Assembly (NCBI RefSeq): GCF_026130545.1
Contig: NZ_JAMOIM010000001.1
Span: 620,001-684,000 of the forward strand
Origin: Lichenifustis flavocetrariae
Lineage (GTDB): Bacteria; Pseudomonadota; Alphaproteobacteria; Rhizobiales; Beijerinckiaceae
Direction: 5' to 3'
Length of the DNA: 64,000 nucleotides
Numbering within the stretch: position 1 is the first letter of the stretch; every line of letters begins with the position of its first letter. The position numbers were made by a program, and so were the translations under genes. Under the pieces are notes generated by a model, which was not told where the DNA came from, ran no database searches, and saw only the letters and a program-made list of their open reading frames with translations. Shown piece by piece: positions 50,526-59,905 of the stretch.

Positions 50526-51361
50526 CCTTTGACGGCACCTTGGGTCAGGCCCTCGATGATGTGGCGCTGAAAGAACAGCACCAGCAGGATCAGGGGCAAA
50601 GTCACCACGACCGAGGCGGCGGCGATGTCGCCCCAGGGCACGTAGTAGAGATTGGTGAAGTTCGCGATGCCGACCGGAATGGTCTGGTGCTCGATGTTCG
50701 ACGTGAACGCGAGGGCGAACATGAATTCGTTCCAGGCCGCGATGAAGGCGAGCAGGCCCACCGTCACGAGCGCCGGAGCCGACAGCGGAACGATGATCCG
50801 GACCAGCAGGCCGATCGTGCCGATCCCGTCCATGCGCGCCGCCTCGTCGAGCTCGCGCGGGAAGGTCTCGAAATAGCCGAACAGCACCCAGGTCACCAAG
50901 GGGAGGCCCAGCGCCACATAGGTGATCACGAGGCTCGTGAACGTATCGAGAAGGCCGAGGTTTGCGGCGATCAGGTACAACGGGCCGACCAGCGCGATCT
51001 GTGGAAACATCGACACGGACAGGATCGTGATCAGGATGCCGAAGCGCTGCTTGATGCGCAGGCGGGACAGCGAGAAGGCCGCCATGGCGCCGATCGCGAG
51101 GCAGAACAGGGTCGTCAGACCGGCCACGATGATCGAATTCAGCACATAGAGCTGGAAGTGCTTGGCCGCGAAGACGTTGTAATAATGGTCGAGCGTGCCC
51201 GGCGAGGGCCAGAACGAGGGCGTCGCGGCGGTCAACGCCTTGTCGTCCTGAAACGATGTCGACAGCTGCCAGATGAAGGGCGCCGCCGACCAGACCAGGA
51301 TCGCGGTCGCGCCGGCAAAGATCAGCGCCTGTCGGCTGGCCGTGCGGCGCCGCCCGATCAT
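50522..51361 (-). CDS. Sugar ABC transporter permease, MalG-like (CUT1)
   Basis: 279 residues with six membrane helices and the coupling loop EAARMDGIGTIGLLVRIIVPLSAPAL (EAA-x3-G-x9-I-x-P). The final helices match MalG/UgpE. It pairs with the MalF-like permease (four-base overlap) to form the CUT1 channel. No MalK/UgpC-type ATPase is encoded in the operon, so the complex must borrow one. Confidence 0.92.
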   Translation of the reverse strand: MIGRRRTASRQALIFAGATAILVWSAAPFIWQLSTSFQDDKALTAATPSFWPSPGTLDHYYNVFAAKHFQLYVLNSIIVAGLTTLFCLAIGAMAAFSLSRLRIKQRFGILITILSVSMFPQIALVGPLYLIAANLGLLDTFTSLVITYVALGLPLVTWVLFGYFETFPRELDEAARMDGIGTIGLLVRIIVPLSAPALVTVGLLAFIAAWNEFMFALAFTSNIEHQTIPVGIANFTNLYYVPWGDIAAASVVVTLPLILLVLFFQRHIIEGLTQGAVKG

Positions 51362-52287
51362 CGTGCGCGTCCGAGTTGGCGGACGATGAAGACCGCGAAG
51401 CCCACAGCGATGATCGCCTCAGTGATGAACATGGCGGTCGAGAGCGTGGAGCCGTAGCCGAATTGCAGCGTGGAAAACAGGGTCTTGTAGCTGAGCGTCG
51501 ACAAGGTTTCGGTCGAATCGGCCGGGCCGCCGCCCGTCAACACATAGACGAGATCGAACACCCGGAAGGCGTCGAGCGCCCGGAACAGACCGGCGATGAG
51601 CAGCGTCGACCACAGCATGGGAAGCCTCACATAAAGAAAGGCCTGCCAGGTCTTCGCGCCGTCCATGCGGGCGGCTTCGGTGAGCGAGCCGTCGATCGTC
51701 TGCAGCCCGGCCAGCAGGAGCAGCGCCATGAACGGGGTCGTCTTCCAGACATCCGCCACGATGATCGTGCCGAGCGCATGGTCGACCGAGCCATACCAGT
51801 TGATGTTGTCGCGGATGAGCCCGGCGGAAAGCAGCAGCCAGTTGACCACGCCGTGCTGTCCGTCGAACAGCCATCCGAACATTTTCGACGTCACGACCGT
51901 CGGCATGGCCCAAGGAACCAGCATGGCGGCCCGGATGAGCGAGCGGCCGGTGAACTGCTCGAACAGAAGCAGCGCCATGCCCATCCCGATCACGGTTTCC
52001 AATGCCGTGGAGACGAAGGTGAACACCAACGTGTGGCGCCAGGCGTTCCAGAAGGCGTCGTCGCCCAGCAGAACGCCGTAGTTCAGCAAGCCGACGAAGT
52101 CATCCTGCTGGCTGACCAGCGAGGTGTTCCGCAGAGACAGCCATAGCCCGTTGAGGATCGGATAGACCGAGACGGTCCCGAGCGACACCGCGATGGGCAC
52201 GAGAAGCAGCCAGGGAGTCGCGTCGGGCCAACGGTTCCGAGGCTTCCGTGCCGCAACCGTTCCGAGGCGCACGGAAGCGCTGCTCAT
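51358..52287 (-). CDS. Sugar ABC transporter permease, MalF-like (CUT1)
   Basis: 309 residues with six membrane helices. Coupling loop EAARMDGAKTWQAFLYVRLPMLWSTLL, start PWLLLVPIAVSLGTVSVYPI typical of MalF/UgpA proteins without the large periplasmic loop. It is the partner of the MalG-like permease and begins one base after the binding-protein stop. Confidence 0.92.
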   Translation of the reverse strand: MSSASVRLGTVAARKPRNRWPDATPWLLLVPIAVSLGTVSVYPILNGLWLSLRNTSLVSQQDDFVGLLNYGVLLGDDAFWNAWRHTLVFTFVSTALETVIGMGMALLLFEQFTGRSLIRAAMLVPWAMPTVVTSKMFGWLFDGQHGVVNWLLLSAGLIRDNINWYGSVDHALGTIIVADVWKTTPFMALLLLAGLQTIDGSLTEAARMDGAKTWQAFLYVRLPMLWSTLLIAGLFRALDAFRVFDLVYVLTGGGPADSTETLSTLSYKTLFSTLQFGYGSTLSTAMFITEAIIAVGFAVFIVRQLGRAR

Positions 52288-52288
52288 T

Positions 52289-53605
52289 CTATTTGCCGAG
52301 GATCTGATCGATGCGCGTGTTCGCGGCTTCGAGTTCCGCCTTCACGTTGCCGGACACGAGCGCTTTCGACACGCCCGATTGGATCGCCAGCGTGACCTGG
52401 GCATATTTCGGCGTGACGGGGCGTGGCGTCGCCCCCACGAAGACGCTCTTCAGTTGTTTCATGAAGGGCTGCTCCTTGCCGAGCTGCGCGTCGTCGTAGA
52501 CGGCGGGCCGTGTCGGCGCGATGCCGAGCTGCAGGGCGAAGCGCAGTTGCGTGGCGGGCGACGACATCCAGGTCAGGAAGTCGATGGCGGCTTCGCGGTT
52601 CTTGGTCGCCGCATTGACGCCGAACTGGTAGCCGCCGAGACAGGCGGCCGATTTGCCGCCCGCGAAATGCGGGAGCGGCGCGACGCCGACCTTGCCCACC
52701 ACCGAAGAGCCCTTCGGATCCTGGGCGATCGAATAGACATAGGACCAGTTGCGCAGGAACGCCGCATCGCCGCCCGTGAAGGGCTGACGTGACGGTTCCT
52801 CGTCCCAGCTCAGCACGTCGGACGGGCTGATCTTGCTCTTATTGATCGTGTCATACAGGAACTGGATCGCCTCAATGCTCTTGTCGCTGCCGAGCGCGCC
52901 GGATTTGCCATCGGCCGACAGGATCGCGCCGCCGTTGGAGGCGATCACTTCCACTGCATCGCAGACCAGCACTTCAGCCTGCTTGCCCTGCCACAGATAG
53001 CCGAACTTGGCCTTGCCGCTCTTCTGGATGGCTTCGGCCGTTGAGACGAGATCGGCCCAGGTCTCGGGAACCTTGGCGCCGGCTGCTTCGAGCAGGTCGG
53101 TCCGATAATAGAGCATCCCCGAATCGACGAACCAGGGCAGCGCCGTCAGCTTGTTGTTGTAAGTACAGGCCGCAACAAGGCCCGGAAAATAGTCGGTGCG
53201 CGCCGATGCGGGGAAATATTCGTCGAGCGGGAGGGCCCAGCCGGCGCCCGCCATCTCGGCGATCCACACCACATCCTGTGTAAAGACATCCGGAGTGCCG
53301 GTCTTGCGGACGAGCTGCTGCACCAGAGCCTGATGGACTTCCGTGGAAGAACTCGGCGGCGGCAGTTCGACATAGGTGACGTGCACCTTGCTCTGCGACT
53401 GGTTATAGGCCTCGACCACCTCGGCCATGGTCTGCTTGCCGAAGAACTTCGCGCTCGAGAAGGTGATCTCAACCCGGTCGGCGGCTCGGGCACGTGGTGC
53501 GCCAAGCAGGCTGGCGCCTGCCGCGAGACCTGCGCCTGCCAGAAACTCTCGTCGTCCGATCGGACCAAGGCCCGACTGCAAGGCCGCCGTCTTGTCGTTG
53601 CTCAT
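52289..53605 (-). CDS. Sugar-binding protein of CUT1 ABC transporter, Tat-exported
   Basis: 438 residues from ATG 53605. Tat signal with twin arginine: IGRREFLAGAGLAAGASLLGAPRARA. The mature protein is a type II binding protein (VEITFSSAKFFGKQTMAEVVEAYNQ, TALPWFVDSGMLYYRTDLLEAAG, PFTGGDAAFLRNWSYVYS). Tat export of a folded binding protein is frequent in rhizobia for sugar and sugar-alcohol importers. First gene of the nine-gene operon; divergent from a plus-strand dehydrogenase across 186 bp. Confidence 0.9.
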   Translation of the reverse strand: MSNDKTAALQSGLGPIGRREFLAGAGLAAGASLLGAPRARAADRVEITFSSAKFFGKQTMAEVVEAYNQSQSKVHVTYVELPPPSSSTEVHQALVQQLVRKTGTPDVFTQDVVWIAEMAGAGWALPLDEYFPASARTDYFPGLVAACTYNNKLTALPWFVDSGMLYYRTDLLEAAGAKVPETWADLVSTAEAIQKSGKAKFGYLWQGKQAEVLVCDAVEVIASNGGAILSADGKSGALGSDKSIEAIQFLYDTINKSKISPSDVLSWDEEPSRQPFTGGDAAFLRNWSYVYSIAQDPKGSSVVGKVGVAPLPHFAGGKSAACLGGYQFGVNAATKNREAAIDFLTWMSSPATQLRFALQLGIAPTRPAVYDDAQLGKEQPFMKQLKSVFVGATPRPVTPKYAQVTLAIQSGVSKALVSGNVKAELEAANTRIDQILGK

Positions 53606-53709
53606 ATCAACTCTCCCCGTGGGCGCCGGTTCGTGCCGCCGGCTGCCTTGGGACTGAGCATCCCACACCGATTGTGGTAGTCAAGCAGAAAACAGCACGT
53701 TGACGCACA

Positions 53710-53721
53710 CTCGTGCACGAG
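53710..53721. promoter_or_regulatory. Palindrome CTCGTGCACGAG, candidate operator
   Basis: Perfect 12-bp palindrome midway between the divergent CUT1 operon and the dehydrogenase/TagK/GatZ genes. Its 10-bp core TCGTGCACGA is identical to that of the palindrome at 608-619 upstream of the GntR regulator gene. Confidence 0.5.
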
Positions 53722-53791
53722 GCACCCTATGGAAAAGGCGTAATGCTGCATTTCACGGTGCGGAGCATGGACGCGAAAAGGGAGTGCAGGC

Positions 53792-54925
53792 GTGGAATCG
53801 CTCAAGATCGGCGTTGTGGGATGCGGCAACATCTCAATGACCTATATGCGCAACGCGGCGCTCTTCCGCGGTGTCGAGCTCAGGGCCTGCGCCGACCTCT
53901 CGGCTGAACTGGCCGGCATTCGGGCCAAAGAGTATGGCATTCGGGCCGAGACGGTGGATCGGCTGCTCGCAGCCGACGACATCGACCTCATCCTCAACCT
54001 CACGGTGCCCAACGCACATTTCGAAATTTCGATGGCGGCGCTTGCCGCCGGCAAGCATGTGTTCACGGAAAAGCCGCTTGCCACCTCGGCCGCGAAGGGA
54101 CGCACGCTCGTGGCGGAGGCGGCACGGCGCGGTCTGAGCCTCGGGTCGGCGCCCGATACGTTCCTGGGCGCGGCAGGACGGCACGCGCGACAGTTGATGG
54201 AGGGCGGCGCCATTGGCCGACCCGTCACAGGGACGGCCTTCATGATGGGCCGGGGCATGGAACATTGGCACCCCAACCCGTCCTTCTACTATCAGCCGGG
54301 CGGCGGTCCCGTGCTCGACATGGGCCCTTATTACGTGACGATGCTGGTGAACTTGCTCGGCCCTGTGCGCCGCGTCCTGGCCATGGCGACGAGCGGGTCG
54401 TCCGAGCGGCTGATCACGGCCGAGGGTGCTTTGCAGGGCACGACGTTCGCGGTCGGCACGCCCACCACGATCAATGCGCTGCTCGAATTCGCGACCGGCG
54501 CGCTCGTCACGGTCGGCATGAGTTGGGATGTCTTCCGCCATTCGATCCCGCCGATCGAATTGCACGGGACTGAGGGGTCGCTGCGCTTGCCCGATCCCGA
54601 CACGTTCGGGGGCGAGGTGGCGATCAGCCGGGCCGGTGTGGCGTGGGAGGAGCGGCCGAGCGACGCGGCTCTTTATGGCGCGAAGAACTGGCCCTTCACG
54701 GCAGCCGATCGGGCGAATTACCGGATGCTCGGCGTCGCCGATCTGGCGCGGGGTCTTCACGAGGGTCGCCCTCCTCGCGCCTCCGGCGCCTTGGCGCTGC
54801 ACGTGCTCGAGGTGCTGGAAGCGATGTTGGAGACGGGAGCCTCGGGAATCTCACGCACCATGGAGACGACGGCGGTGCAGCCGGCGGCCTTGTCCGAAGA
54901 CGAGGCGGCCTCGCTCAAGGCATGA
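53792..54925 (+). CDS. Gfo/Idh/MocA family oxidoreductase
   Basis: 377 residues with a GTG start at 53792 (GGGAG upstream). Rossmann fold SLKIGVVGCGNISMTYMRNA, then LTVPNAHFEISMAALAAGKHVFTEKPLAT and the substrate-domain segment GGGPVLDMGPYYVTMLVNLLGPV with conserved D-x-G-x-Y/H. The GPY-Y form in place of the frequent GxH-x3-D is typical of the family branch with YteT-like and glycoside-oxidising members. It is divergent from the CUT1 operon and 151 bp ahead of the kinase gene. Confidence 0.86.
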   Translation: MESLKIGVVGCGNISMTYMRNAALFRGVELRACADLSAELAGIRAKEYGIRAETVDRLLAADDIDLILNLTVPNAHFEISMAALAAGKHVFTEKPLATSAAKGRTLVAEAARRGLSLGSAPDTFLGAAGRHARQLMEGGAIGRPVTGTAFMMGRGMEHWHPNPSFYYQPGGGPVLDMGPYYVTMLVNLLGPVRRVLAMATSGSSERLITAEGALQGTTFAVGTPTTINALLEFATGALVTVGMSWDVFRHSIPPIELHGTEGSLRLPDPDTFGGEVAISRAGVAWEERPSDAALYGAKNWPFTAADRANYRMLGVADLARGLHEGRPPRASGALALHVLEVLEAMLETGASGISRTMETTAVQPAALSEDEAASLKA

Positions 54926-55076
54926 GGATCCGGCCGCGACCAAGCGCGGTCGGCCACTCGATGCCTTGCACTCAGCGACCTCTTCGTCAAAAGCGCGTAC
55001 CGTGGCAGCATCGTTCGGGAGGCACCGCGGCAACGGGGTTGCGCGGGACCGCTTTGGCCATCGAAATGAGGCTGTT

Positions 55077-56030
55077 GTGAAGAAGGTCGTTACCATCGGG
55101 GAGATCCTCGTCGAGATCATGGCCACGACGCGCGGCACTGGTTTTCGCGAGCCGGTGGCCCTCGTCGGGCCATTCCCCTCCGGGGCCCCCGCCATTTTCA
55201 TCGACCAGGTGGCCACCCTTGGGCAGCCCTGCGCGATGATCGGCTGTGTCGGCAACGACGATTTCGGTCACCTCAATCTCGACAGGTTGCGCCGCGACGG
55301 CGTGGACGTGCGCGGGATCGCGGTCGACCCCGAGGCTGCCACGGGCAGCGCTTTCGTGCGCTACAGGACGGACGGCGCACGCGATTTTGTCTTCAATATC
55401 AAGCACAGCGCGTCCGGCCGCACGACCCTGACAGAAGCCGCCCGCGTGGTTCTGGCCGAGAGCGACCACCTTCACGTCATGGGCACGGCCCTGTTCTCGC
55501 CGGCTCTCGTGGCGACGATCCTGGAGGCCATCCAGGTGATCAAGCGCAAGGGCGGCACTGTGTCGTTCGATCCCAACGTGCGCCCGGAGATGCTTGGGCT
55601 CCCGGGCCTGCGCGACGCCTTCGGCACGATCTTCGCGCAATGTGATCTGTTTCTCCCAAGTGGTCCCGAACTGTTCCTGATGACGGGGGCCAAGACCTCC
55701 GACGCGGCTGTGGCCGAGATCCTCGGCACAGGCATCCAGGCCGTCGTGATCAAGAATGGCGCCGAGGGTGCCGGCTTTGCTTCGCCAACCTTCAAACTGC
55801 ATCAACCGGCCTTCCCGGTGCAGGAAGTCGATCCGACCGGTGCCGGTGACTGTTTCGGCGCCACCTTCGTCACGTGCTGGCTGCGCGGCATGGAGCCGGG
55901 CCACGCGCTGGCCTATGCGGCGGCGAGCGGCGCCCGTGCGGTCGAGCGGCAGGGGCCGATGGAGGGGGTGTCGAGTTTCGCGGCGCTCGATGCCTTCATG
56001 GCCACCCATCGAGCGGAGCCCTCGCGATGA
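55077..56030 (+). CDS. PfkB family sugar kinase, tagatose kinase-like
   Basis: 317 residues from GTG 55077, chosen because TGAGG lies 5 bases upstream and the protein then begins KKVVTIGEILVEIMA. Ribokinase-fold features: GPFPSGAPAIFIDQVATLG, CVGNDDFGHL, FDPNVRPE and the C-terminal signature VDPTGAGDCFGATF with catalytic Asp258. It overlaps gatZ by ATGA. In Agrobacterium a kinase of this type (TagK) makes tagatose-6-phosphate for GatZ, so the same role is proposed here; substrate is inferred from the neighbour. Confidence 0.78.
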   Translation: MKKVVTIGEILVEIMATTRGTGFREPVALVGPFPSGAPAIFIDQVATLGQPCAMIGCVGNDDFGHLNLDRLRRDGVDVRGIAVDPEAATGSAFVRYRTDGARDFVFNIKHSASGRTTLTEAARVVLAESDHLHVMGTALFSPALVATILEAIQVIKRKGGTVSFDPNVRPEMLGLPGLRDAFGTIFAQCDLFLPSGPELFLMTGAKTSDAAVAEILGTGIQAVVIKNGAEGAGFASPTFKLHQPAFPVQEVDPTGAGDCFGATFVTCWLRGMEPGHALAYAAASGARAVERQGPMEGVSSFAALDAFMATHRAEPSR

Positions 56031-57331
56031 GCCGAGCCATTCCCACCCTCATCCGCGAGCGTCTCACGGGACCGAATGCCGGCATCCCGTCGATTTGTAC
56101 GGCCCATCCGGTCGTGATCGAAGCGACGCTCCGGCACGGCAAGAGCACCGACGCCAAGGTGCTCATCGAGGCGACCTGCAACCAGGTGAACCAGGATGGC
56201 GGCTACACTGGCATGACGCCGGCCGGCTTCCGCCGCTTCGTCGAAGGGATCGCCGACACTGTCGGGTTCGATCGCGGCCGGCTGATCCTGGGCGGCGACC
56301 ACCTCGGCCCGAACCCGTGGAAGCATCTGCCAGCCGAAGACGCGATGGCCCGCGCGGCCGCAATGATCGACGCCTATGCGAAGGCAGGCTTCAGCAAGCT
56401 CCATCTCGACACCAGCATGGGCTGCGCGGGCGAGAGCGCGGCGCTGCCGGATGCCGTGACGGCGAGTCGCGCCGCCCGTCTTGCGAGAGTCGCAGAGACC
56501 GCGACGAATGCCTCCGAGAACCCGCCCGTGTATGTGATCGGCACCGAGGTGCCGGTGCCCGGCGGCGCCCTTGAGACTCTCGATCATCTTGAGCTGACGA
56601 CCCCGGAAGCCGCACTGGAGACCGTCGAGGTGCATCGGCGTGCCTTTGTGGCCGCGGGTGTGGAGGGAGCCTTCGAGCGCGCCATTGGCGTCGTGGTGCA
56701 GCCGGGCGTCGAATTCGGTCATGCCGAGGTGATTGCGTATCAACCTACCCGGGCGGCCGGACTTTCGGGAAGCTTGGCGCGCATGCCCCAATTCGTTTTC
56801 GAGGCCCATTCGACCGATTACCAATCGGGCGAAGCCTTGACGGCCCTGGTGCGCGATGGCTTTGCGATCCTCAAGGTCGGTCCCTGGCTGACCTTCGCGC
56901 TTCGGGAGGCGCTTTATGGTCTCGACGCGATCGCCCAAGTGATCGCACCGGCGGCCGAGGGTGAAGGGCTTCAGGCGCGCATGGAACAGTTGATGCTGCG
57001 CGAAGCCATTCACTGGCAAAAATACTATCACGGGACGCCGGATGAACTCCGCGTCCAGCGCCATTTCAGCTACAGCGACCGCATTCGTTATTATTGGCCC
57101 CATCCGGACGCGCAAGCCGCCGTGGCGCAGCTTCTGAGGCGCCTCGAAGGCCACATCATCCCGGACACGCTGGTCAGCCAGCACCTCGCTTGGGCCTATC
57201 CTGCGGTAAGCCGTGGCGACGTGCCGGCACGGGCCAAAGAGCTGCAGATCGCGGCGGTTCAGCGTGTGCTCGACCTCTATGCTCAGGCCTGTGCCGTGGC
57301 CCCGATGGCAGGCCCGGCGGTCGTGCCATAA
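56027..57331 (+). CDS. gatZ: GatZ/KbaZ-like tagatose-6-phosphate-metabolising protein
   Basis: 434 residues from ATG 56027. GatZ/KbaZ family signatures: GIPSICTAHPVVIEA, VLIEATCNQVNQDGGYTGMTP, GRLILGGDHLGPNPW, KLHLDTSMGC, PVYVIGTEVPVPGG, FEAHSTDYQ and HFSYSDRIRYYW. In enterobacteria it was seen as a non-catalytic aldolase subunit; in Agrobacterium it epimerises tagatose-6-phosphate to fructose-6-phosphate. No GatY/KbaY aldolase is present here, which favours the epimerase role. Its 3' end overlaps the convergent oxygenase gene by 49 bp. Confidence 0.85.
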   Translation: MSRAIPTLIRERLTGPNAGIPSICTAHPVVIEATLRHGKSTDAKVLIEATCNQVNQDGGYTGMTPAGFRRFVEGIADTVGFDRGRLILGGDHLGPNPWKHLPAEDAMARAAAMIDAYAKAGFSKLHLDTSMGCAGESAALPDAVTASRAARLARVAETATNASENPPVYVIGTEVPVPGGALETLDHLELTTPEAALETVEVHRRAFVAAGVEGAFERAIGVVVQPGVEFGHAEVIAYQPTRAAGLSGSLARMPQFVFEAHSTDYQSGEALTALVRDGFAILKVGPWLTFALREALYGLDAIAQVIAPAAEGEGLQARMEQLMLREAIHWQKYYHGTPDELRVQRHFSYSDRIRYYWPHPDAQAAVAQLLRRLEGHIIPDTLVSQHLAWAYPAVSRGDVPARAKELQIAAVQRVLDLYAQACAVAPMAGPAVVP

Positions 57332-58161
57332 ACGATGCCCTTTTCCTTGAGCCAGCGTCGATAGGCGACGGACGAGCCATCCGCCCGCGTCGGGATTTCA
57401 GCGCGCGGCTCAAGGGGAAGCAGGACCGGCCGTTGATTTTCAAGGATGATGCGGTCCTGCAAGAAGATCAGCTGCTGAAATTGGATCAGCGTGCCCAGCG
57501 GCGAGACGTCGTCGACCAGGAACATCACCGGATGGGCACGGCAGCGGCCTGGGTCGAGCGGCTGCACGAAGAGAGCGATCACGTCCCATCGGTCGTAGGC
57601 ATTGGGGCAGGTCTTATACAGTAGGGTCACGAAGGGTGAGGCGACGCGATACTGGTACTGCGTCATGATCCCACCTTGAGCCGAAGCGGCAGCCTGCGGC
57701 TGGAAAAACTGGCAGTTTGTGGCCCAGACCTCGTCGACGTCGCGCCGGATCTCGGTCGTGTAGTGAAGCACTTCGGTGTTCGGCTCGGCACCCAGGATAT
57801 CCGTATGCACAAAGGGGAAATGCGCCATGTCGAGAAAATTCTCGACGATCCGCAAGCCCGACGCCTTCACGGTCACGCTGCCGCACACGACATGGCGGCG
57901 GTCGACTTCGTCCGCTTCAGAAATGAGCGGGATGTCGCGGGGCGGGGCGCCGAGCGTGGTCCAGACGCAATCGTAACGCTCCCGCGCCGGCAGCGGATCA
58001 ACGCCATCGGCCGCGGTCACCACGATTCTGCCATTCCGGTCGCGCCGCACCGAGAGATCGACGCCGAGAAGCCGGGTCTGGCGCGGCGTCACCGTGACGG
58101 CGTCGCTGTTGTCGATGACGTACCATTGGTCGAGTGCGGCGGGTTCGGCGTGGCTCGGCAT
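57283..58161 (-). CDS. Rieske-type oxygenase catalytic subunit lacking the Rieske cluster (NdmC-like)
   Basis: 292 residues from ATG 58161. It opens like a vanillate-demethylase-type oxygenase (LDQWYVIDNSDAVTVTPRQTRLLG) but jumps from the strand DLSVRRDRNGRIVV directly to YDCVWTTLGAPPRDIPL, omitting the 40-residue segment holding CxH and CxxH. The catalytic domain is complete: NFLDMAHFPFVH gives Asp111, His114 and His119, and FLQDRIILENQRP gives Asp236, the mononuclear iron site. Without a cluster it needs an outside Rieske donor, and the divergent gene at 58593 encodes one. NdmC of the caffeine pathway is a known Rieske-less relative. Substrate unknown; demethylation or hydroxylation of a small aromatic or purine is expected. 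Confidence 0.82.
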   Translation of the reverse strand: MPSHAEPAALDQWYVIDNSDAVTVTPRQTRLLGVDLSVRRDRNGRIVVTAADGVDPLPARERYDCVWTTLGAPPRDIPLISEADEVDRRHVVCGSVTVKASGLRIVENFLDMAHFPFVHTDILGAEPNTEVLHYTTEIRRDVDEVWATNCQFFQPQAAASAQGGIMTQYQYRVASPFVTLLYKTCPNAYDRWDVIALFVQPLDPGRCRAHPVMFLVDDVSPLGTLIQFQQLIFLQDRIILENQRPVLLPLEPRAEIPTRADGSSVAYRRWLKEKGIVYGTTAGPAIGATAQA

Positions 58162-58338
58162 GGTGGCTCTTTTCCCAGTCGCTGCATTCAACCATGTTGG
58201 ATCCGGACGGGCTATTCTCCAAGATGCTGAGCTGAACGGAACACCCGACGCGCACGGAGCCAGGAGACTTTGGCCGGGATTGGCTCGCCTCCTGCATCGC
58301 GTGCCGGCCGTGTCCACCAGGGCGAATAGAGACAGGAT

Positions 58339-58596
58339 GTGAGAGAGGCAGCCACGATCAAGTTCAGCGGGACGCTCGATCCGGCACGATTCTGCGAATT
58401 CCTCGACCATCGCGCCCGACGGCTCGATCTCGACACGCGGCTCGATGGAGTGGGGTCGGAGGCCGTCACCGTGACGGTGGAAGGCGAGCCGGATCTCATC
58501 GACGCCTTCGAGATGGCCTGCAGCCTGGGGCCGGCCAACTGCCTCGTGCGCGAGGTCGAACGCTGCGCGCCTGCTCTCTCAAGGGACGCGACATGA
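58339..58596 (+). CDS. Acylphosphatase-like small protein without catalytic residues
   Basis: 85 residues, GTG start at 58339. The pattern IKFSGTLDPARFCEFLDHRARRLDLDTRLDGVGSEAVTVTVEGEPDLIDAFEMACSLGPANCLVREVE follows the acylphosphatase fold (beta-alpha-beta-beta-alpha-beta, with GP near the end), but the catalytic Arg of GVGFR and the Asn of the second loop are absent. It is the first gene of a tightly coupled set, overlapping the Rieske gene by ATGA. It may be a binding or scaffold protein of the oxygenase. The start is not certain. Confidence 0.6.
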   Translation: MREAATIKFSGTLDPARFCEFLDHRARRLDLDTRLDGVGSEAVTVTVEGEPDLIDAFEMACSLGPANCLVREVERCAPALSRDAT

Positions 58597-59264
58597 TGTC
58601 CGAGGACGGCTGGTATCCGGTGGCACTCGCGGACGATATCGAGCCTGGAACCTCGACCGGCACTCGGCTCTTCGGGCGCGAACTTGTGGTGTGGCGCGAC
58701 ATCACCGGACACTCCCACGTGTGGGAAGACCGTTGTCCGCATCGCGGCATGCGCTTGAGTTTCGGCTTCGTGCGCGGCAGCTCGATCGCCTGCCTGTATC
58801 ATGGCTGGCAGTTCGATGCGGGTGGCCGCTGCCGCTACATTCCCGCACATCCCAAGCTCGACGTTCCGGCGTCGATCGCGGTGGAGCGCTTCGCATCCGC
58901 CGAGCGGCTCGGGATCATCTGGGTATTCTCGGGTGACCCATCGGGTGCCGGTACGCCGCCCGGCGGCAATGCCGAGACCATGCCGGTTCGCAGCCTCTCC
59001 GTGAACGCACCGGCGATTTCGACTGTCGCGGCTCTGATGAAAGAAGCGTCGCTCCTCGTTGAGGCCGGAGCGTCCGGCCCGTTGCTGATGCTCCAGGCCT
59101 GCGGTGAGCCCGTTTACATCGCGGTCCAACCGACCGGCGCGCAGGAAACAACCTTGCATGTCGTGGTCGAACCGGGGTCCGACCGGCAGAAGGTGTCGCT
59201 CTGGGCCGAAGCCTTGCGCCATACCCTCGAAGCGGAGCCGACGCGTAGCGGAGTGACGGCGTGA
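58593..59264 (+). CDS. Rieske [2Fe-2S] protein, stand-alone
   Basis: 223 residues. Residues 1-115 match the N-terminal half of a Rieske oxygenase: WYPVALADDIEPGTSTGTRLFG, RCPHRGMRLSFG (Cys48, His50), CLYHGWQFD (Cys67, His70), IPAHPKLDVPASIAVERFAS and GIIWVFSGDP. The catalytic iron motif is missing; the rest is a short tail (VYIAVQPTGAQETTLHVVV) reminiscent of the last strands of the catalytic domain. So it complements the divergent gene exactly: one has the cluster, the other the iron site. It is likely the electron donor or trans-domain. Overlaps the GST-like gene by four bases (GTGA). Confidence 0.85.
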   Translation: MMSEDGWYPVALADDIEPGTSTGTRLFGRELVVWRDITGHSHVWEDRCPHRGMRLSFGFVRGSSIACLYHGWQFDAGGRCRYIPAHPKLDVPASIAVERFASAERLGIIWVFSGDPSGAGTPPGGNAETMPVRSLSVNAPAISTVAALMKEASLLVEAGASGPLLMLQACGEPVYIAVQPTGAQETTLHVVVEPGSDRQKVSLWAEALRHTLEAEPTRSGVTA

Positions 59265-59905
59265 CCGGGCTTGTTCTGCACGACTTCGAGCTCGACGAGG
59301 GCTGCTACAAGGTTCGCCTGCTGCTTGCGGCCTTGCATGTTCCGCATCTCAGGTCGGCCGTGAATATGGTGCCGGGCGGCGAGCAGACGCGGCCGCCGCT
59401 GCTGCTGCTCAACCCGCTTGGCACGCTGCCGATCCTGGAGGATGGGGCAGGGGACGACACGGTGGTGCTGCGCGACGCGGAGGCCATTCTGGCCTATTTG
59501 GCAGTGCGATACGACGCCGCACGTCGCTGGCTTCCGGACGAGCCAAAGGCCTTTGGGCAGGTCATGATGTGGATGACCTTCGCGTCGCGCGACCTTCACG
59601 CGGCGGTGCTGGCACGACGGCATGCGATGTTCGAGGAGATTGTCGATGGCGCGGCCATGACGTCCGCGGCGCGCCGTGCCTTCCGGGTCATGGACGATCA
59701 CATGACGATGCGTCGCCTCGATGGTGATGTTTGGTTCGTCGGGAAAGGCCCCACCCTGGCCGATTTGGCGCTGTTTCCGTCGTTTGCCCTGAGCCGCGAC
59801 TTTAGCATCGACCATGAGGCCTATCCGGCCCTTCGACGCTGGATGCGGCGTGTCCGTAGCATTCCGGGTTTCACCACGATGCCGGGCATCCCCGATTACC
59901 ATTAG
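59261..59905 (+). CDS. Glutathione S-transferase-fold protein (NdmE-like position)
   Basis: 214 residues, GTG start at 59261. N-terminal thioredoxin-like domain (LVLHDFELDEGCYKVRLLLAALHVPH, NPLGTLPILED, LRDAEAILAYLAVRY) and C-terminal helical domain (VWFVGKGPTLADLALFPSFALSRDF, with the conserved Asp of the N-capping box). In the caffeine pathway the GST-like NdmE is needed for assembly of NdmC with NdmD; here a GST protein is likewise coupled to a Rieske-less oxygenase set. A maturation, assembly or thiol-cofactor role is possible. Ser/Tyr catalytic residue is not obvious. Confidence 0.82.
   Translation: MTGLVLHDFELDEGCYKVRLLLAALHVPHLRSAVNMVPGGEQTRPPLLLLNPLGTLPILEDGAGDDTVVLRDAEAILAYLAVRYDAARRWLPDEPKAFGQVMMWMTFASRDLHAAVLARRHAMFEEIVDGAAMTSAARRAFRVMDDHMTMRRLDGDVWFVGKGPTLADLALFPSFALSRDFSIDHEAYPALRRWMRRVRSIPGFTTMPGIPDYH

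Follow-up and report, generated by a model that had tools for sequence, protein, structure and literature searches.

Four genes of Lichenifustis flavocetrariae, designated C, A, R and E and contained in a 64,000-nt stretch of its genome (NZ_JAMOIM010000001.1, positions 620,001–684,000; ‘the window’), probably encode the subunits of a single heteromeric monooxygenase of the Rieske type whose substrate would be a methylated purine, a reading in which we have moderate confidence. C keeps the mononuclear iron site and has apparently lost the [2Fe-2S] cluster, R keeps the cluster and has apparently lost the iron site, and E and A would be their partners. A normally one-chain, two-metal enzyme would then have been divided into two reciprocally disabled subunits and still be conserved across a bacterial order. 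All four genes were confirmed at the positions given in an earlier note on the window.

C (57283–58161, minus strand; 292 amino acids (aa), ATG start) carries a VanA-type catalytic domain (Pfam VanA_C, PF19112, 68.9 bits, cut-off 23.5; KshA_C was barely above its cut-off, 23.6 versus 23.3), and the same search found no Rieske domain in it. Its iron ligands His114, His119 and Asp236 (motif D..H....H plus Asp236), which the earlier note had picked out as an intact site, are invariant in 152/152 homologous open reading frames (ORFs), as is Asp111, the putative bridging residue by analogy with other Rieske oxygenases. Profile alignment, both with full-length relatives and with R, places the loss of 48 residues, including CxH...CxxH, between residues 50 and 51, bearing out the clean absence of the [2Fe-2S] segment noticed earlier. 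Residues 1–85 of C matched the Rieske domain of R at 97.5% probability (≤1.9% in 30 shuffled controls) and full-length relatives at 99.1%; judged by these alignments, C retains a Rieske domain stripped of 48 cluster-binding residues. The Rieske motif was present in 0/152 C homologues, a count that is partly a matter of construction because C and full-length ORFs were sorted by Rieske match, those with such a match being classed as full-length. A sequencing error or pseudogene, correction of which would restore the motif in C, was rejected: no examined C homologue has the segment and the 100 Rieske-less sequences placed in a tree form one clade (see below), so that such an error is very unlikely.

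The cluster missing from C is found in R (58593–59264, plus strand; 223 aa), which matched the Pfam Rieske domain at 82.9 bits (cut-off 20.3), with ligands at Cys48, His50, Cys67 and His70. Among R homologues of 195–260 aa the Rieske motif was present in 93/93 and the iron motif in 0/93, and 20 ORFs in which R is fused to a reductase had the same pattern. Both motifs on one chain, the VanA-type arrangement, occurred in 19/19 full-length relatives, in 0/152 C ORFs and in 0/93 R ORFs. This size range takes in 93 of 108 R-labelled ORFs. Among the 15 left out, two (351 and 361 aa), in which both motifs occur, are mislabelled full-length oxygenases; the ORFs of 291, 187 and 189 aa, like one fragment, show the Rieske motif without the iron motif; eight pieces of 47–159 aa have neither, most of them beginning or ending at the end of a stretch; and in a 177-aa R from Komagataeibacter the full Rieske motif is incomplete, the second Cys being missing in the alignment, so that this one R may be dead.

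The earlier note had described R as a free, Rieske-only protein. It is indeed free of any fused reductase, ending at 223 aa, and its cluster ligands are those the note named, but ‘only’ does not hold, since residues ~124–223 are predicted to form a catalytic domain that is reduced in size and lacks the iron ligands. The model (whole chain, 57-sequence alignment, pLDDT 91) superposed on residues 3–311 of dicamba monooxygenase over 218/223 residues (Z 19.6, 2.6 Å), and scored Z 18.7–19.1 against GxtA and SxtT and Z 17.6–18.2 against NdmA; its top Foldseek match was GxtA. A plain Rieske ferredoxin is rejected by the length of R, by its fold and by its alignment, over nearly its whole length, with residues 7–221 of NdmD (29% identity, 3e-31). 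The remainder of NdmD (284–588) aligns with a free VanB-like protein; on these alignments NdmD is made up of an R protein and a VanB-type reductase in one chain, and its middle part is therefore probably a relict catalytic domain. In profile comparisons this middle part matched the C-terminal part of R at 96.8% and the catalytic domain of C at 86.5–86.6% (≤1.0% in 30 column shuffles each way; control families, GST and reductase, 0.1 and 0.7%). Other profile comparisons weigh against a relict domain: the NdmD middle part matched full-length relatives at just 6.7–11%, and the C-terminal part of R gave a weak match to C (17–18%, spanning 23 columns) and one of 1.5% to full-length relatives. Because these matches of R are weak, the case for its relict domain rests mainly on the predicted fold. 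It is because R is modelled as a whole subunit without iron, and C aligns as one whose Rieske domain lacks the cluster segment, that the two look like reciprocally degenerate alpha subunits. The closest sequence matches in the PDB were, for both, SxtT and SxtDIOX (GxtA), with NdmA and NdmB also listed. C and R resemble SxtT/GxtA, dicamba monooxygenase and NdmA/NdmB in sequence, and R does so in fold, but all of these enzymes carry both metal sites on one chain.

In other Rieske oxygenases electrons pass from a cluster-ligand His through an Asp to a His of the iron site. In the window set an unlinked reductase would pass electrons to R, whose Rieske cluster would deliver them across the subunit interface, from a ligand His of R through Asp111 and His114 of C to the C iron; this would activate O2 and hydroxylate an N-methyl group, yielding formaldehyde and the free purine. 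The complex we infer, in which the two metal sites sit on separate chains, would be a natural test system for inter-subunit electron transfer. A precedent for one Rieske oxygenase on two chains is the chlorophyllide a oxygenase of Micromonas pusilla, whose Rieske and iron sites reportedly lie on different chains. It consists of two polypeptides, for which its authors suggested a trimer of dimers (PMC9615114); it differs in being eukaryotic and in its substrate, and the portion of that paper drawn on here mentions neither a GST nor an acylphosphatase-fold partner.

The gene set is conserved. With P0001 as query (E ≤ 1e-10), matches were obtained in 52/297 genomes of the order (the ‘order sample’), and profile typing of 58 stretches around them gave 31 ‘split’ loci (C with a free R), 15 ‘fused’ loci (C with an R–reductase fusion, as in caffeine NdmD), eight full-length oxygenases and four stretches with a lone C (L045, L047–L049), in whose genomes R lies elsewhere. 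E was present in 31/31 split and 14/15 fused loci, A in 29/31 split and 0/15 fused loci. Every genome with a Rieske-less C had R (46/46; 31 free, 15 fused to a reductase), in keeping with the co-occurrence for which the earlier note had proposed to search, and contrary to its converse, an oxygenase gene always without Rieske and GST genes in relatives. In the order sample, R matches at E ≤ 1e-33 (a threshold of our own choosing, with at most nine candidates scored per genome) were confined to genomes that also matched C; of these 48 matches, two were to Rieske domains within full-length oxygenases (G114, G144). At E ≤ 1e-10, A was detected in 30/31 split genomes (the exception being G226), 0/15 fused genomes and one genome without C (G188), and a looser 1e-6 added one fused genome (G034, 1.9e-8) and six more without C. 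The A-like small protein of G188 (contig C37, 88544–88768; E 2e-12) stands in a genome with neither a C nor an R match at the cut-offs used.

A scan of named genomes (the genome_contigs set) returned at least 531 relatives. Of the 80 that were typed, 68 were split and 12 had no R in the examined stretch; E or A lay at the stretch edge in seven of these, and none of A, R and E was seen in the other five. R was likewise out of view in two plasmid loci, L033 and L031; the record of the latter starts some 3 kb ahead of C. Host genera include Rhizobium, Bradyrhizobium, Bosea, Gluconobacter, Asaia and Pacificibacter. In a sample of 289 genomes of the class (at most ten candidates scored per genome) the R profile matched five at E ≤ 1e-45, that of L. 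flavocetrariae included, so the set is sparse there. Relatives on viral contigs came to two loci, both of the full-length type; in these two IMG/VR contigs (L183, L184), which may be phage DNA or misassigned bacterial sequence, the full-length Rieske oxygenase gene has one for a BMP-type protein next to it.

The split form appears to be derived rather than separately invented. In a tree of 119 rows, a selection of C and full-length ORFs with the latter as outgroup, the 100 Rieske-less rows form a single clade (support 100/99), by which an origin independent of NdmC, one of the possibilities raised by the earlier note, is rejected. Fused forms branch first, in more than one group, followed by the caffeine-type NdmC group, with the split forms nested inside (72 rows, support 99/96; 90/60 with an odd Komagataeibacter copy included). 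On the simplest reading of this order, C lost the cluster segment once, R was fused to a reductase early, and fission later freed R, with A gained. Since split C shares the NdmC clade and is nested among NdmD-type loci, free R is most likely the product of fission of an NdmD-like protein; the direction of this history is likely, not proven, because backbone support is moderate (88/82 and 93/94) and several outgroup rows are long. Some NdmD-type loci (L072, L073, L074, L077, L079, L080 and L098) have two C genes and one R–reductase fusion, as if two oxygenases shared one Rieske protein.

NdmC/NdmD/NdmE of Pseudomonas putida CBB5 is described as the N7-demethylase of 7-methylxanthine (Summers et al. 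2013, via PMC4408171). Like NdmCDE, the window set has a Rieske-less iron oxygenase, a GST-like partner and a Rieske domain contributed by another protein; compared with the counterparts encoded by P. putida plasmid pTmex-577K, C is 45%, E 40% and R 29% identical. Unlike NdmCDE, it has a free R without reductase, an added acylphosphatase-fold protein and other gene neighbours. In having no fused Rieske–reductase (NdmD) the split set is not NdmCDE, yet by analogy it probably works like one, and sequence relationships make it a variant of that kind, not an independent invention. In the P. putida plasmid cluster, which we take from gene order and partners to be the ndm cluster for caffeine, a Rieske-less C, an R–reductase fusion and a GST are encoded together with NdmA/B-like oxygenases and with genes of the frmA and fghA types. 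In Komagataeibacter nataicola plasmid pKNA08, from a kombucha isolate, two C/R/GST sets were found (L097, 4905–16970), the split genes being flanked by those for NdmA- and NdmB-like oxygenases, and a VanB-like reductase being encoded there as a free protein. Like the window set, pKNA08 has free R, C and E genes and a 48-aa ORF matching A; it differs in its second R/C/GST set (R of 177 aa, no standard Rieske motif), its VanB-like reductase and its NdmA/NdmB-like neighbours. The cluster may give this acetic acid bacterium a methylxanthine pathway, and together with the P. putida cluster it links the family with methylxanthines.

The earlier note had the four genes as a four-part oxygenase of wholly open substrate. 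The conserved four-gene set stands, but the substrate is less open than that, since a purine is suggested by the genes that recur near C in relatives, namely those for two deaminases, of guanine and of 8-oxoguanine, and for a BMP-type ABC importer. Guanine deaminase exceeded its NCBIfam cut-off of 375 in L032 and L109 (421 and 415 bits), and 8-oxoguanine deaminase its cut-off of 532 in L109 and L176 (602 and 557.5 bits), with relatives under the cut-off in L035 and L034 (369 and 365 bits). When counted as ≥45% identity to the L032 protein and ≥30% to the L035 protein, respectively, guanine deaminase was linked in 28 and 8-oxoguanine-deaminase-like genes in 18 of the 68 genome_contigs split loci, the importer in 47, and at least one of the three in 47, compared with at least one in 19/31 split loci of the order sample. 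Several relatives are annotated merely as aromatic ring-hydroxylating dioxygenases, and a purine role is hereby suggested for possibly hundreds of genes. As C is 45% identical to NdmC, N-demethylation is suggested, with 7-methylguanine or 7-methylxanthine perhaps the first-choice substrates; either would be imported by the BMP-type transporter and deaminated by guanine/8-oxoguanine-type deaminases. The enzyme, widespread in soil and plant bacteria, would then probably demethylate purines such as those in RNA or caffeine.

Several observations weigh against this assignment. Among the order-sample split loci, guanine deaminase is linked in just nine of 31, 8-oxoguanine-deaminase-like genes in nine and the importer in 17, and none of the three was in the examined stretches of 12. 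No purine gene stands beside the window locus, where the flanking genes examined are of tagatose catabolism; those found in the same genome (8-oxoguanine deaminase, 654 bits; guanine deaminase, 578 bits; a BMP protein) are on contig C169, the window being on C92. A frmA-like gene (≥50% identity) was present in one split locus only, that of Komagataeibacter. The position of the window copy apart from purine genes would suit a non-purine methylated or methoxylated aromatic substrate, with the purine neighbours coincidental, as would the GMC oxidoreductase and aldehyde dehydrogenase among other recurrent neighbours. We consider such a substrate very improbable, given that two deaminase families and the importer recur beside C over many loci and that the nearest characterised enzymes among the matches obtained, SxtT/GxtA saxitoxin-type oxygenases apart, are methylxanthine demethylases; the methoxy-aromatics that had been proposed for screening are thus less likely substrates.

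An 8-oxoguanine deaminase adjoining C is equally compatible with a C8-hydroxylase, and the chief rival to N-demethylation has this split oxygenase adding a hydroxyl group to a carbon of the purine ring, for example converting guanine to 8-oxoguanine, from which the linked deaminase would give urate. The deaminase, above cut-off in both L109 and L176, immediately adjoins C in the former and is next to it in the latter, homologues are similarly placed in other loci, and HpxD, annotated as a molybdenum-independent xanthine hydroxylase, is a distant homologue (29%). C is, however, far closer to NdmC, whose complex is a reported N7-demethylase, than to HpxD, and guanine deaminase together with the xanthine-dehydrogenase-type genes of another locus group already gives a guanine-to-urate route, so that ring hydroxylation appears unlikely. 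In that other kind of locus (L180, L172, L150 and similar) a different amidohydrolase precedes C (best NCBIfam match in L172 340 bits, cut-off 609), with R or E a few kb upstream where in view. Xanthine-dehydrogenase-type domains (MoCoBD, FAD-binding and Ald_Xan_dh_C) follow C in L180, in an ORF that represents a cluster of ORFs present in 24/123 loci.

Returning to N-demethylation, a more specific form of it, a four-protein oxygenase of reciprocal alpha subunits and two non-catalytic adaptors that has no dedicated VanB-type reductase and demethylates 7-methylguanine from RNA turnover, is a tentative proposal that we hold to be rather doubtful. The open-licence literature yielded no such enzyme for demethylation of 7-methylguanine as a step of purine salvage or catabolism, and no paper linking Rieske with 8-oxoguanine deaminase or with 7-methylguanine.

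How R is reduced was approached through reductase genes. No VanB-like gene is present in the window, and linkage was seen in only 2/31 order-sample and 1/68 genome_contigs split loci plus the Komagataeibacter plasmid, by which a linked reductase is rejected as the rule. A simpler account would have the set as a plain NdmCDE system whose reductase is a separate VanB-type gene elsewhere, A being incidental. It is favoured by the VanB-like gene inside the Komagataeibacter cluster, by two unlinked VanB-like reductases (39% and 36%) on other contigs of the L. flavocetrariae genome, and by matches at E ≤ 1e-40 anywhere in 12/30 split genomes, this one included. The other 18 have no such match; when 17 of these were re-searched at 1e-5 (G134, 78% complete, being left out), 13 gave weaker matches (best 5e-22) and four none. 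Together with the presence of A in split but not fused genomes (30/31 versus 0/15, E ≤ 1e-10), this makes the plain NdmCDE account improbable, and one must ask which protein reduces R in genomes without a strong VanB-like reductase. A GR-type ferredoxin reductase (PF14759) occurs in all 17 VanB-poor split genomes, a count made in genomes with the set and so without a background, and the four such genes examined (G099, G223, G021 and G130) had no homologue at E ≤ 1e-25 in 154 neighbourhoods; for both reasons it stays a mere candidate as donor to R. FAD_binding_6, also in 17/17, is uninformative.

E and A would be non-catalytic partners that join R and C or keep them soluble, as reported for NdmE. 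E (59261–59905, plus strand; 214 aa, GTG start) has both GST domains (PF13409, 38.5 bits, cut-off 25; PF00043, 35.2 bits, cut-off 20.7) and is 40% identical to NdmE over 209 residues; with E in 31/31 split loci, the GST-fold partner recognised earlier beside the split oxygenase is upheld. A (58339–58596, plus strand; 85 aa, GTG start) had no Pfam match above cut-off, and acylphosphatase models scored far below theirs (NCBIfam 16.4 versus 114). Its model (pLDDT 92) has the alpha/beta acylphosphatase fold (3br8, Z 11.8 over 77 residues, 2.0 Å), so that ‘acylphosphatase-like’, the earlier description, is right as to fold but not as to catalytic residues: at the position matching the catalytic Arg, Arg was found in 3/44 sequences, and at that matching the catalytic Asn, Asn is outside the eight commonest letters. 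With neither position conserved, an active acylphosphatase is unsupported. No paper linking a Rieske oxygenase with acylphosphatase was found in the open-licence literature.

The set is divergent and tightly coupled, as had been noted, and its recurrence in the order is more than chance. A and R, and R and E, overlap by 4 bases each, and C is oriented divergently from A across 177 bases (58162–58338), presumed from sequence to be a shared regulatory region. On its other side C meets, tail to tail with an overlap of 49 bases, a tagatose catabolism cluster (51358–57331), in which sugar ABC genes upstream were assigned by eye, and which includes a tagatose kinase (446.5, cut-off 420), GatZ/AgaZ (614.5, cut-off 568.8) and a Gfo/Idh/MocA protein.

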